Shown in pieces: positions 2,009 through 62,100 of a stretch of DNA of 64,000 nt. Source of the stretch: Sacculina carcini (Eukaryota > Arthropoda > Thecostraca > Sacculinidae). The position numbers and the translations under genes are program-made. The number at the start of each line of letters is the position of its first letter. Position 1 is the stretch's first letter. Under the pieces are notes generated by a model that saw only the letters and a program-made list of their open reading frames with translations, did not search any database and was not told where the DNA came from. The DNA lies in assembly GCA_916048095.2 (NCBI GenBank), contig OU696589.1, forward strand, positions 2,144,948-2,208,947, given 5' to 3'.

Positions 2009-2303
2009 ATATGTGTATGTGTGTGTGTGTGTGTATGTCTGTACTTGTGTGTATGTATGTGTGTGTTGTATGTATGTGTTGTATGCATGTGTGTGAGTGT
2101 GTATGTATGTGTGTATATATGTGTATATATATGTGTGCGTTGTATGTATGTGTTGTCTGCATGTGTGTGTGTGTGTATGTGTGTATATATGCGTGCTTTG
2201 TATGTATGTATGTGTGTGTTGTATGTATGTCTGTATTTGTGTGTATGTATGTGTGTGTTGTATGTGTGTGTGTGTATGTCGGTATTTGTGTGTGTGTGTG
2301 TGT
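2009..2303. repeat. TG-rich tract abutting stac exon A
   Basis: TGTATG/TGTG words run straight into the TAG acceptor of exon A. Confidence 0.85.
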
Positions 2304-2305
2304 AG

Positions 2306-56100: not shown

Positions 56101-59100
56101 TATATTTTCAATCTATATCAACCTGTGGAGCAAATTGCGGGTATTTTTGAAGCACGCGGTCTAGACTAGAGATCCCAACCCAAAATTTCTGCCAGCGAAA
56201 TGTCTCGTATTAGCTATCACACTCATGATCGGCTCAAGTTATTGTTCTTGTTTTATGCTTCTTATTTCTATATTCTATACTCTTAGACTTTCAGCAGATG
56301 TTGCGAGATATTTCAGGAATCCTCATTGTTTTTGAGAAGTAATTTTTCCTAAAATTTATTCATTATTCCTTAAATTTAGTTATTTTTCCTGAAAATGAGC
56401 TATTTTGCTGAGGTCAAGTTAATTCCTCCGCTTGCTATTGTGAAAATTTGCAAATTTTTGTCATTTTTTCTAGGTAGGTTTAGTTATAAATTAATCAAGT
56501 CGCAACAAAACAAAACCTAGCTTGAAGTGTCATATAACTGATAACAGTTTCAAACGCCATGATCGGTGACAGTTGATCAATGTCAACAATGTCCCCTTCA
56601 TTCTCCCACTGGACCACGTGCTCACTGGCTTGCAATTATCCAGTCCAAGCAAACCAATCATCCAGGGGAAACAAGCACATGTGCACACATACACATACAT
56701 CACAATACATCACCTGTTGTCTAATGTTACATGGAAACTGAGGGCCACACAGCGAGAATTCTGCATTTACGCGTGTCTGTGTGTGTGTGTGTGTGTGTGT
56801 GTGTGTGTGTGTGTGTGTGTGTGTGTGTGTGTGTGTGTGTGTGTGTGTGTGTGTGTGTGTGTGTGTGTGTGTATCTGTCTCTGTGTGTGTGTGTGTGTCT
56901 CGTTGTTTGATGGAGTTAAGCTGGCGATCAGTCATGATCCCAGAAATAATGTCCACCTGAAATTTGCCTCAGGCACCAAAACAACCCACACAACAGTATA
57001 TAAATATATACTGTATATACTGATTTTAGGTTTTGTATTTGTGTTCTAATAATATTCACAATTATTCACTCAGTTCTAAAACACCATATGCAACCATCTT
57101 GAAAAATGTATTGATTGAATTATTTTTATTTTTATTAATTACAGGCAGATCCGGTAACATGCGATGAGTGCAGGCACTATTGTCACCATGCGGTGGCCCC
57201 ATCTACCTGCTTGCGACAGAAATTTATAGAGCGTTTGATAAATACGAGTTTACTTAGAAAGGTGAACTCACGTGAGTCCATGCACAACTCAAGCGAAAAC
57301 CAAAAACCTGAACAAAATGAAAATTAGCAACCACGGAAAAACGACGAGCCGGTTGATTAAAAACCAAGTGTGTCGGTGGTTAATGTTGGCAGCTGGCCAA
57401 CTTCACACCTTTGCGCATCTGCTAATTTGCACCTGTTCAGAACAAGATCACCGCGCAAACACTGAAACAAATTACTCGACTGTGTCGTGCTAATGTTATA
57501 TCCAATAATTGAGTGTGTGTGTGTTTTTTTTTGTTTTTTTTTGAGACACAAACAAATATATTTACAAACGCGTACACATATTCACAACACTACAATACAA
57601 TGGAGGCGGCGTTGCCACGAATGACGGCCAGGCTTATTCGCTGCCGAAGCCAGGCCGTCTCTCGCGGCTCCCCTGAACGCTCGCTGATTCTGCCGCCCAG
57701 GAGCTTGACGAAGTCGTCCAGGGATGCCCCCATCACGCCGCTGGTCTCGATGGCCATGTGTGTGTGTGTGTGTGTGTCAGTGTGTGTCAGTGTGTGTGTG
57801 TGTCAGTGTGTGTCAGTGTGTGTGTGTGTGTGTGTGTGTGTGTGTGTGTGTGTCAGTGTGTGTCAGTGTGTGTCAGTGTGTGTCAGTGTGTGTGTCAGTG
57901 TGTGTCAGTGTGTGTGTGTGTGTCAGTGTGTCAGTGTGTGTGTGTGTGTCAGTGTGTGTGTCAGTGTATGTCAGTGTTTGTCAGTGTGTGTCAGTGTGTG
58001 TCAGTGTGTGTGTGTGTCAGTGTGTGTCAGTGTGTGTGTGTGTGTGTGTGTGTCAGTGTGTGTCAGTGTGTGTCAGTGTGTGTGTGTGTGTCAGTGTGTG
58101 TCAGTGTGTGTGTGTGTCAGTGTGTCAGTGTGTGTGTGTGTGTCAGTGTGTGTGTCAGTGTATGTCAGTGTTTGTCAGTGTGTGTCAGTGTGTGTCAGTG
58201 TGTGTATGTGTGTGTGTATGTGTGTGTGTCACTGTGTGTGTGTGTCAGTGTGTATCAGTGTGTGTATGTGTGTGTGTGTGTGTGTCAGTGTGTGTGTGTA
58301 TGTGTCAGTGTGTGTCAGTGTGTGTGTGTGTGTCAGTGCGTGTGTGTGTCAGGATGTGTCAGTGTGTGTGTGTGTGTGTGTGTGTGTGTGTGTGTGTGTG
58401 TGTGTGTGTGTGTGTGTGTGTGTCTGTGTCAGTGTGTCAGTGTGTGTGTCAGTGTGTGTGTGTGTCAGTGTGTGTCAGTGTGTGTGTCAGTGTGTCAGTG
58501 TGTGTGTCAGTGTGTGTCAGTGTGTGTGTCAGTGTGTGTGTCAGTGTGTGTGTCAGTGTGTGTGTGTGTCAGTGTGTGTCAGTGTGTGTGTGTGTCAGTG
58601 TGTCAGTGTGTGTGTCAGTGTGTGTGTCAGTGTGTGTGTCAGTGTGTGTGTCAGTGTGTGTGTGTGTCAGTGTGTGTGTCAGTGTCAGTGTCAGTGTGTG
58701 TGTCAGTGTCAGTGTCAGTGTGTGTGTCAGTGTCAGTGTCAGTGTGTGTGTCAGTGTCAGTGTCAGTGTCAGTGTGTGTGTTAGTGTCAGTGTGTATTCT
58801 CACACCAGTCTGCACGTGCGTGGAATGTTGAAGGCACTTGTACATTCAACATTCAAGCCGGCTTCAACGTGGAAAAACGAATTTACATAAGTGAATCCAT
58901 CCAACAATGTCTCACATGCCCCTTGTTCGCCATCATTCAACATGTCAACACGCCTGTGTGTATGTGTGTATGTGTGTGTGTGTGTGTGTGCACAAGAGGA
59001 AGAGAAGTGTGTTGACACAGAGCATAATCACATTAGGATAATCCTGAAGTTGTATGCCAGCATGCCATTGTCAAATTGATGAGGACGCTTTCACTTGAAC

Positions 59101-62100
59101 GCCAGCGTTTGTGTTATGTGAACACTGTCAATATTGCATCGTACGATTGGTAGAATAGACAGAACGAGAAGGGATTACAAGCACTAAAAATATTACGAAA
59201 CGGAGCTTTGGAGGAATAATAATACATTAAATAGACACAGTGTACCCCGGATATAAGAGATAATTTTTTTGGTGTGCGTCTTCTATACTTTGTGTAGTTT
59301 TCTCGTTTATAAGAGATTTTTATCCACCCTCGACAATTCTCTTATACCTGGGATACACTGAATATAATCGGTGAGAACCTATGAACTATTTTTTTAACTT
59401 TATACAAGCATGATTTTTAGGAGTTTAAATTTTCAACAATGAATTTCACATGAGGTTCAAAGTGTAGAAAGTTAGAATAAACGAACATTATTTCATTGAT
59501 CTCAGACGAACCGAAATCATATTCAGAATGGCCCGGTTGATTCAGTTCATCATCACTGGCTTATTGTTTGTATTGTAGGCGTGCTTGTGAATTGCATCAT
59601 CAATACGAGTAAATGCCATGATGTGGCAACATGTCCTGCAACATGCCCTGCAACATGCCCTCCAACCGTCTCTCGCACTATACAAAGTGTTTTACCATGT
59701 CATTCTACTGTGTATGTATGTGTGTATGTTTGTGTGTGTATGTGTGTGTATGTGTGTGTGTGTATGTGTGTTTGTGTGTGTATGTATGTGTGTGTGTGTA
59801 TGTTTGTATGTGTGAGTGTGTTTGTGTGTGTGTTAGTGTGTTTGTGAGTGTGTATATGTGTGTATGTGTGTGTGTGTGTGTGTGTGTGTGTGTGTATGGC
59901 TAGCAGAACAATTGTTCAACTACACGGTAGCTGTCTCAGAAAACCTACACGTGAACACACGAACATACACACATACACATACATGTTTGTTGAAATTTGT
60001 ATGTGTGTATGTGTGTGTGTGTGACATGGCTTCACCATGTCCTCCCTTCTGTATATTCAAATTAGTCATTGTTTGTCGGGATGCAATTTCACCCACGCCG
60101 TGTTGCAACATACATCTTGTCACTCGCATACACACACACACACACACGAACGAGGAGGAGAAATTGCACGGTGTTGAATTGTGCACGATCCTCGTGACCT
60201 AATGGCTGTTGATGATTCTCAAAATATCACCTGTCTTATATCGAGATCTGGTATCATGATATACTGCAAAATGTTTTTGTATTGATAATCTGGGCAGGAA
60301 ATATATCTATGAAGGAACAAGCTTGTTCCCTTAAGAGTGAAGCCCTGTTTGACGCCCCTGATGAATATGTTGTCTCGAATAATAGACAGACTCACTAGTC
60401 TCATGAGTCACACTTACTAGTCTCATGAGTTACACTCGCCAGTCTCATGAGTCACACTCACTAGTCTCATGAGTCACACTCACTAGTCTCATGAGTCACA
60501 CTCACTAGTCTCATGAGTCACACTCACTAGTCTCATGAGTCTTACTCACTAGTCTCATGAGTCACACTCACTAGTCTCATGAGTCACACTTACTAGTCTC
60601 ATTAGTCACACTCACTAGTCTCATGAGTTACATTGTCTGTGACATATCTGCTGGACGTTGTGAGGTTCTTGATTGATGATGTAGTTGAATGATGAGCCAA
60701 AGACACTGCTGATTTCAACAATAACAACACCAGCAACAGAAAATAATAGGCCACTGTCAAGTTGATGTCGCTCTCTCTGTCTACTAGCAATACCTAGCCT
60801 AGCCTAACCTCCCCTGACAATCACTTCATTTCCAGCAGCAGTGTGCATGTGTGTGTGTGTGTGTAAATTTGTAAATTAAATTTATTGTCACACATAAACA
60901 ATATCATAATAGTAAAATAAGAACAAGTAAGGGTGACAAATGTCCTCCGAGCATGGGCCGATTAGCGGACATGAAAGTTGGAAATTATGACAATTGAAAA
61001 AAACCCAATAATAAATAACTGGAATTATAAATCACTCATCCAAACCACGAATACATTTATCGGAAGAATACGAGTATATACACACACACACAGTAAACAT
61101 AAATCACTAAAGTAAAACTGTGTGTGTATGTTTGTGTGTGTACGTGTGTGTATGTTTGTGTGAATGTTTGTGTGTATGTGTATGTACGTGGGTGTATGTT
61201 TGTGTGTATGTGTATGTGTGTGCGTGTGTGTATGTGTGAACGACAGCGGGCCAGTGCCCTGCTCAACGTGCTTGCTGTGGCCGTGATGAACCAATGGCCC
61301 GGAGTGCGGGTGCGAGTGATCAACGCGTGGAGTGAAAGTGGCATCCTGCCGCGAAATAGTCTGCATTACGAGGGTCGGGCACTGGACTTGACCACATCGG
61401 ACCGAGACCAGTCCAAGCTGGGACTGCTCGCTCGTCTAGCAGTCAATGTCGGCTTCGACTGGGTGTCCTACGCAAGCAACACGCACGTACACTGTTCCGT
61501 CAAGTCGGGTGAGTCGCTCACATCTCGACATGGTAACTTATCAGCACCACATGAAGACAAACTAGCACAGGAGTTCTTAAGCGGAGTTGCGAGAATTGCT
61601 GTGACAAAAACTAAAAAACATATATTTTTACTATGCTTTATATTTTTCCTAGGAAACAAACTTGAAGGAAACATAAAGGAACTTCAGGATGTATGAATGA
61701 ATATTGAATAAAAAAGCTTTGTTATTACGACATATGTATGTATCATTTCATAAAGCTATCATGAATCCAGGGGATGCGAGAACTGACTGAAAATGAGATA
61801 AAGGTATAAGCACTGAAAAAAGTCAAGAACCATTGTAATAACACGAAGGAGAACATTTGTTAGAGGGTCCTCTCTCATTAGGAAGGCCATCTTCTCACAG
61901 AGTCGTCTCCTCTTGAAAAGTTTGCCCTCATTACTGACATCTGGTGGCGTTTATTGAATGACTGCACAGCGGTTGTGTGTTGATTATTGTGACTTGCTCG
62001 GAAATCACCACACTGTCCGGGAATTGAACCCGGGACACCCGGGTAGCAAATATGACGCGCTAGCCGCAATCACACCGTTCTGGACAATCCCCCCTCTAAC

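Follow-up and report, generated by a model that had tools for sequence, protein, structure and literature searches.

TG-rich tracts in the position of the polypyrimidine tract at most acceptors of two genes from Sacculina carcini

We analyzed a stretch of 64,000 nucleotides from Sacculina carcini (assembly GCA_916048095.2, contig OU696589.1, positions 2,144,948 to 2,208,947 of the forward strand), called the window below, and all coordinates refer to it. The + strand of the window carries two rebuilt genes, stac, which encodes a C1 domain and tandem SH3 domains, and hh, which encodes an HH signal domain and a Hint domain. An earlier reading of the same letters, here called the original prediction, had claimed that TG-rich sequence stands in place of the pyrimidine tract at most 3' splice sites (acceptors) of these genes. 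Our analysis bears this out. TG tracts occupy the pyrimidine-tract position at exons that a working protein needs, and the excess of such tracts at the stac and hh acceptors is real and confirmed within the window.

Gene models of stac and hh

The exons were assembled using open frames, splice dinucleotides and reading phase, and the material is the DNA sequence of two genes from one species. We placed 14 acceptors, 11 in stac (exons A–G and I–L) and three in hh (hh2–hh4), together with 12 donors. The exon upstream of stac A was not located and the junction from G to I was not fixed, so there are 12 donor entries for 14 acceptors. The end of exon G was set at 11440 or 11480; the acceptor counts are unaffected by this choice, and one background intron start depends on it. 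The stac gene starts at or before 2306 and its stop codon lies at 33186–33188, and hh extends from about 37929 (start Met assumed) to a stop codon at 63187–63189. hh has four coding exons. One intron falls within the N-terminal half of the signalling domain, and intron 2 is 21 kb long.

Domain matches support several of the joins. The C1_1 score was 17.3 bits for exon B alone and rose to 44 bits once A and B were joined, the J/K join covers SH3_9 from 1 to 49 of 49, and the hh product matches HH_signal from 1 to 161 of 161 and Hint from 8 to 211 of 213. Exons B, J, L and hh3 code for pieces of the C1, first SH3 (SH3-1), second SH3 (SH3-2) and HH signal domains, respectively. The STAC3 structures 6uy7, 6uy8 and 6uy9 match residues 60–178, which span the K/L join. 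Because the best structure E-values in the same table belong to GRB2, the label stac is based on the C1 domain and the STAC3 rows only.

For exons C, D, E, F, G and I, placement relied only on phase, YAG (Y, pyrimidine) and open frame. Their codon scores are modest, being equalled by 0.3% to 7.5% of random intronic 99-mers, and the in-frame score is at least as high as those of the other frames in all six (D ties with one). The joined A–F, F–G and I–L segments are translated with no internal stop. Agreement in phase is no independent test because phase was used in choosing the sites. An exon H had also been proposed, with no coordinates given; the presumed tract at 14652–14703 is followed by sequence with negative codon scores in each of the three frames, and this exon was left uncounted.

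The features of the two genes, all on the + strand, are as follows.

2014..2307, +, TG array running into the stac exon A acceptor (first exon base 2306); border not homology-fixed
3128..3158, +, TG tract ahead of the stac exon B acceptor (first exon base 3164); border set by joining the two parts of C1
3164..3346, +, stac exon B, coding for the latter half of C1
5348..5389, +, TG tract ahead of the stac exon C acceptor (5404)
5725..5782, +, TG-rich region ahead of the stac exon D acceptor (5792)
6921..6940, +, impure TG-rich stretch ahead of the stac exon E acceptor (6953)
9930..10124, +, exon F of stac, its acceptor having neither a TG tract nor a good pyrimidine tract
11270..11301, +, TG/G-rich stretch ahead of the stac exon G acceptor (11330)
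22922..22967, +, TG tract ahead of the stac exon I acceptor (22973)
25266..25379, +, long TG array ahead of the stac exon J acceptor (25396, directly 5' of SH3-1)
26094..26298, +, stac exon K, acceptor without TG
33039..33084, +, TG tract closing in CAG, ahead of exon L of stac (exon starts at 33084 and codes for the second SH3)
37929..38110, +, coding portion of hh exon 1, with an assumed start Met
39940..40078, +, hh exon 2, pyrimidine-tract acceptor
61118..61236, +, degenerate TG/TATG array ahead of the hh exon 3 acceptor (61247)
61247..61508, +, hh exon 3
62426..63189, +, hh exon 4 (Hint), pyrimidine-tract acceptor; stop codon 63187–63189

TG tracts at the acceptors

An acceptor was counted as a TG acceptor if the 60 nt 5' of it held at least 12 TG steps. 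The numbers of TG steps were 21, 17, 20, 13, 15 and 5 for stac exons A to F, then 15 (G), 21 (I), 21 (J), 3 (K) and 19 (L), and 4, 18 and 6 for hh2, hh3 and hh4. Thus 10 of the 14 acceptors (71%), nine of them among the 11 of stac, are TG acceptors, the corresponding shares being 5.95% for the other intronic AGs (n = 2,487) and 6.5% for intronic positions (n = 52,159). When the acceptor set was shifted circularly round the window, the mean count was 1.12 and the maximum was 6, and none of the 63,400 shifts gave at least 10. The original prediction spoke of about nine TG acceptors and listed ten; nine of those listed (A, B, C, D, E, I, J, L and hh3) hold, H is lost, and G has to be added.

The acceptor list was compiled with the TG claim in view, and two guards were used. 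The first is the subset of acceptors for which homology pins down the border or nearly does so (B, J, K, L, hh2, hh3 and hh4). Within it, the borders of J, directly 5' of SH3-1, and of hh4, at residue 194 between the HH signal and Hint matches, are set within a few residues, and each has one phase-compatible YAG within 60 nt. Four of these seven acceptors are TG acceptors, a result equalled by 0.095% of shifts. In the second, alternative YAGs within 60 nt that keep the phase and the open frame were considered: a TG option exists in 10 of the 14 exons, and all options are TG in eight. Because the choice among alternative YAGs preserves it, the TG result is independent of the exact borders.

The pooled TG step frequency is 0.22–0.27 in the last 60 nt and drops back by about −140, the window mean being 0.093. 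The TG-dense regions linked to acceptors are 20 to 294 nt long, and the perfect TG runs within the last 60 nt measure 6 to 44 nt.

The average over the pooled acceptors shows no polypyrimidine tract such as a canonical U2-type 3' splice site has, for the mean pyrimidine content is 0.50–0.51 in the last 60 nt. Between −40 and −4, the longest pyrimidine run of each of the ten TG acceptors measures 1–5, the mean at intronic AGs being 4.26; hh4 is the only acceptor with a run that reaches 8. It had been claimed that only hh2 and hh4 look canonical; both do have a pyrimidine tract, but F and K are also non-TG acceptors, and they are neither TG-rich nor clearly pyrimidine-rich. Since F and K are weak in both signals, stac seems to be generally tolerant of poor tracts. 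A pyrimidine tract hidden 5' of the TG was also considered and rejected for the set, as the pyrimidine content of the preceding 30 nt is 0.52 at acceptor-linked regions (n = 10) and 0.53 at other TG regions (n = 43). T/C-rich stretches do precede the TG tract in B (0.67) and L (0.70), with 0.63 in G, so individual introns may have a hidden tract.

Each of the 14 acceptors is a YAG, with CAG in 13 of them, YAG having been preferred during site choice. Eight TG acceptors (B, C, D, G, I, J, L and hh3) have, within the last 60 nt, a TG run of at least 7 with a listed AG after it. At all eight, the first YAG beyond the run is the site that was chosen, and the AGs skipped before it are GAG in G, AAG in J and GAG at the run end in B. 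The tract of exon A runs straight into TAG, and E has no TG run of at least 7.

Human branch points lie 18–45 nt upstream of the acceptor. In a motif search only, the position of the nearest yTnAy ranged from −52 to −305 for the ten TG acceptors and from −19 to −29 for the four without TG. Therefore, any consensus branch point of the TG acceptors would be located beyond most of the TG tract.

Orientation is a further property of these tracts. Both genes have the + strand as their sense strand, and perfect runs of at least 8 on it amount to 2,342 bases of TG and 336 bases of CA. In the 60 nt 5' of acceptors there are ten TG-dense and no CA-dense regions, whereas elsewhere in the window there are 43 and 25, a density rule that also picks up (AAC)n and (CAA)n arrays. 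CA steps 5' of acceptors are low, with 99.6% of shifts at or above the observed mean. The bias for TG over CA on the sense strand is thus mild in general and far stronger at acceptors, and a general sense-strand preference for TG does not explain the clustering there.

Several other repeats occur in the window. CA-rich sequence is found 3' of donors C, D, E, I and hh2 (5505–5605, 5858–5958, 7086–7186, 23139–23239 and 40084–40184). Three retrotransposon-like fragments on the − strand, at 1066–2010, 12534–13700 and 57593–57760, all lie beside TG arrays; the first two have such arrays within about 150 nt on either side, and the third directly adjoins one. The fragment at 1066–2010 matches RVT_1, and no reverse transcriptase match was found in Pfam for the other two, which share 69% identity over 55 amino acids. 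We take these two to resemble the end of non-long-terminal-repeat (non-LTR) retrotransposons, and the fragments could be a family targeting (TG)n/(CA)n. Two tRNA-like sequences at 14910–14976 and 20677–20748 (two Rfam matches; one tRNA-Leu by ARAGORN) are perhaps the heads of short interspersed elements. A 342-bp unit forms three tandem copies at 40948–41977 in hh intron 2, and a long interstitial array of telomere type, (CTAAC)n = (AACCT)n = (TTAGG)n, lies between stac and hh at 35859–36423; an array of this kind is a pointer to arthropod DNA.

Possible roles of the tracts

These results suggest that the signal by which introns are recognized has incorporated repetitive DNA or at least tolerates it. 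We consider it probable that a (TG)n microsatellite fills the interval between branch point and AG at most acceptors in place of the polypyrimidine tract, with TG kept and CA rejected. Whereas the position and orientation of the tracts, their excess over background and the conserved-domain coding are read from the DNA itself, we infer from it where the branch point lies, that selection acts and that a factor binds the tract. TG microsatellites, which are abundant in the window, would have expanded between branch point and AG, and selection would retain TG and exclude the CA orientation in that interval, giving the layout branch point, (TG)n, first YAG. The reason for keeping TG over CA would be that a UG tract has evenly spaced U residues and lacks AG. 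With U at every second base and no AG in a pure tract, the spliceosome could pass from a 5' branch point to the first 3' YAG. Recognition of YAG of the U2AF35 type may carry much of the specificity, and the tract may be covered by a relaxed, UG-tolerant U2AF65 or by another UG-binding factor.

Some observations weigh against this explanation. Only two genes are involved, and hh alone has one TG acceptor in three, which is not significant (23% of shifts are as high). Exons C, D and F have weak codon scores, as high a score being reached by 5.4%, 6.7% and 7.5% of random intronic 99-mers. The F and K acceptors have no TG tract; therefore TG is not obligatory. Nor are TG and YAG sufficient, because many TG tracts have no known acceptor: this applies to the 43 further TG-dense regions on the + strand and to an array of about 1 kb, (TG)nTCAG, at 57757–58795 in hh intron 2, which contains 75 sense-strand copies of the acceptor look-alike TGTCAG and no known exon. 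The separation of yTnAy from the acceptor is partly mechanical, because a TG tract cannot hold that motif, and the background median for the nearest yTnAy is −54. Finally, human CFTR had been offered as a precedent, but it acts in the opposite way, a long UG tract repressing the acceptor (PMC12171016).

It is rather doubtful, although conceivable, that (UG)n is a general 3' splice signal replacing the polypyrimidine tract in an arthropod lineage and that variation in its length alters splicing genome-wide. If this were true genome-wide, an unstable microsatellite would be a standard component of 3' splice sites in an animal lineage, and polymorphism in TG-tract length could be a large source of splicing variation. 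It would raise the questions of how U2AF manages without a pyrimidine tract and how TDP-43 (TBPH), a repressor of UG-flanked acceptors in mammals, avoids silencing such exons. It would also be relevant to gene prediction in genomes rich in simple sequence repeats, where models expect pyrimidine tracts.

The best surviving alternative, which we regard as possible but less convincing, is that the tracts are a tolerated load. TG microsatellites would expand everywhere, repeats that contain AG or are free of pyrimidines would be purged near acceptors, and splicing would rely on YAG, exon enhancers and donors, with no positive role for TG. Consistent with it, TG also exceeds CA away from acceptors (43 and 25 dense regions) and in the window overall, F and K have neither signal, and Daphnia introns show strandedness of GT over AC (PMC3152781). 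However, if filtering were all, most acceptors should have kept ordinary sequence, and TG would not be expected at 10 of 14 when about 6% of other intronic AGs have it. The original prediction had offered two readings, genome-wide repeat load or UG-dependent recognition. In this window, repeat load by itself does not agree with 71% against 6% or with the lack of CA-dense regions in the 60 nt 5' of acceptors, and a UG-dependent mode is no more than possible.

A second alternative is that the exons are regulated, the UG tracts binding TDP-43 (TBPH) or CELF/Bruno proteins, which would set exon inclusion. UG tracts are a recognized ligand of TDP-43 and lie near its mouse and human cryptic exons (PMC5446763, PMC13343711), and UGUGUGU is listed for CELF (PMC7404189). 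Of the characters of a TDP-43 (TBPH) acceptor, the DNA shows the UG motif only. Several of the exons, however, code for core parts of domains, so that loss of B (183 nt) or L would break the C1 or the second SH3 domain, and nine regulated exons in one gene would be odd. We think this unlikely.

The CA-rich sequence 3' of a donor might instead pair with the UG 5' of the acceptor, as in fish, and make U2AF2 dispensable. CA is enriched from +6 to +106 after the 12 donors (0.45% of shifts as high), although this signal fades when donor I is left out (2.5% of shifts) and more so when C is removed as well (13%). Duplex energies were calculated for 12 introns, pairing up to the first 300 nt of each with its last 100 nt, and 150 random intronic segments served as the control. 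Introns C–D and I–J pair better than 96% and 95% of these segments, but the remaining 10 of 12 introns are at background. Because only these two stand out, bridging of this kind was rejected as the general cause, and it is improbable as an explanation of the tracts.

That the exon borders were simply drawn at the ends of conspicuous TG tracts is very improbable: six exons were indeed placed with the claim in mind and on no more than phase, YAG and open frame, their codon scores are modest and the G-to-I junction is not fixed, but the stop-free joins, the in-frame codon scores, the survival of the TG result under alternative YAGs and the four in seven at homology-fixed or nearly fixed acceptors all speak against it.

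Comparison with known systems

Yeo and colleagues reportedly described AC and GT repeats as intronic enhancers in fish (PNAS, 2004). The nearest known design to the probable microsatellite-filled acceptors of stac and hh is that of certain fish introns, which carry AC repeats at one end and GU repeats at the other (Lin et al. 2016, Genome Research) and for which splicing without U2AF2 has been reported (PMC9198270, PMC7404189). A GU repeat near the acceptor is shared, occurring here in 10 of 14. However, donor-end CA pairing is above background in only 2 of the 12 introns here, and Sacculina is not a vertebrate.

Among the titles and abstract starts listed in a literature search, with most subscription journals outside its scope, none dealt with TG tracts at arthropod acceptors. 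Daphnia pulex, also a crustacean, has introns that favour GT over AC on the sense strand, but that study deals with whole-intron densities, and the phrase "splice site" is absent from its main text (PMC3152781). Penaeid shrimp genomes have a very heavy intronic microsatellite load and, like the window, telomere-type (AACCT)n arrays; TG tracts at acceptors are not discussed in the available parts of these papers (PMC6341167, PMC7878876), and the available part of a prawn paper holds nothing on them either (PMC7536079).

In the (TG)m(T)n of human CFTR intron 8, a long TG with few Ts lowers exon use via TDP-43 (PMC12171016). The arrangement is similar in that a TG tract lies directly 5' of the acceptor with the T tract short or absent, but in our genes it is exons coding for conserved domain parts that bear TG-dense regions and no T tract. 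More generally, mammalian UG tracts near splice sites attract TDP-43 and the site is repressed (PMC12171016, PMC5446763, PMC13343711). The cryptic exons repressed by TDP-43 resemble the exons studied here in having UG runs close to their splice sites, yet they are non-conserved and normally skipped (PMC5446763), whereas those studied here comprise coding domain exons. Repression of UG-flanked sites by TDP-43 is thus the opposite of what the stac and hh domain exons require.

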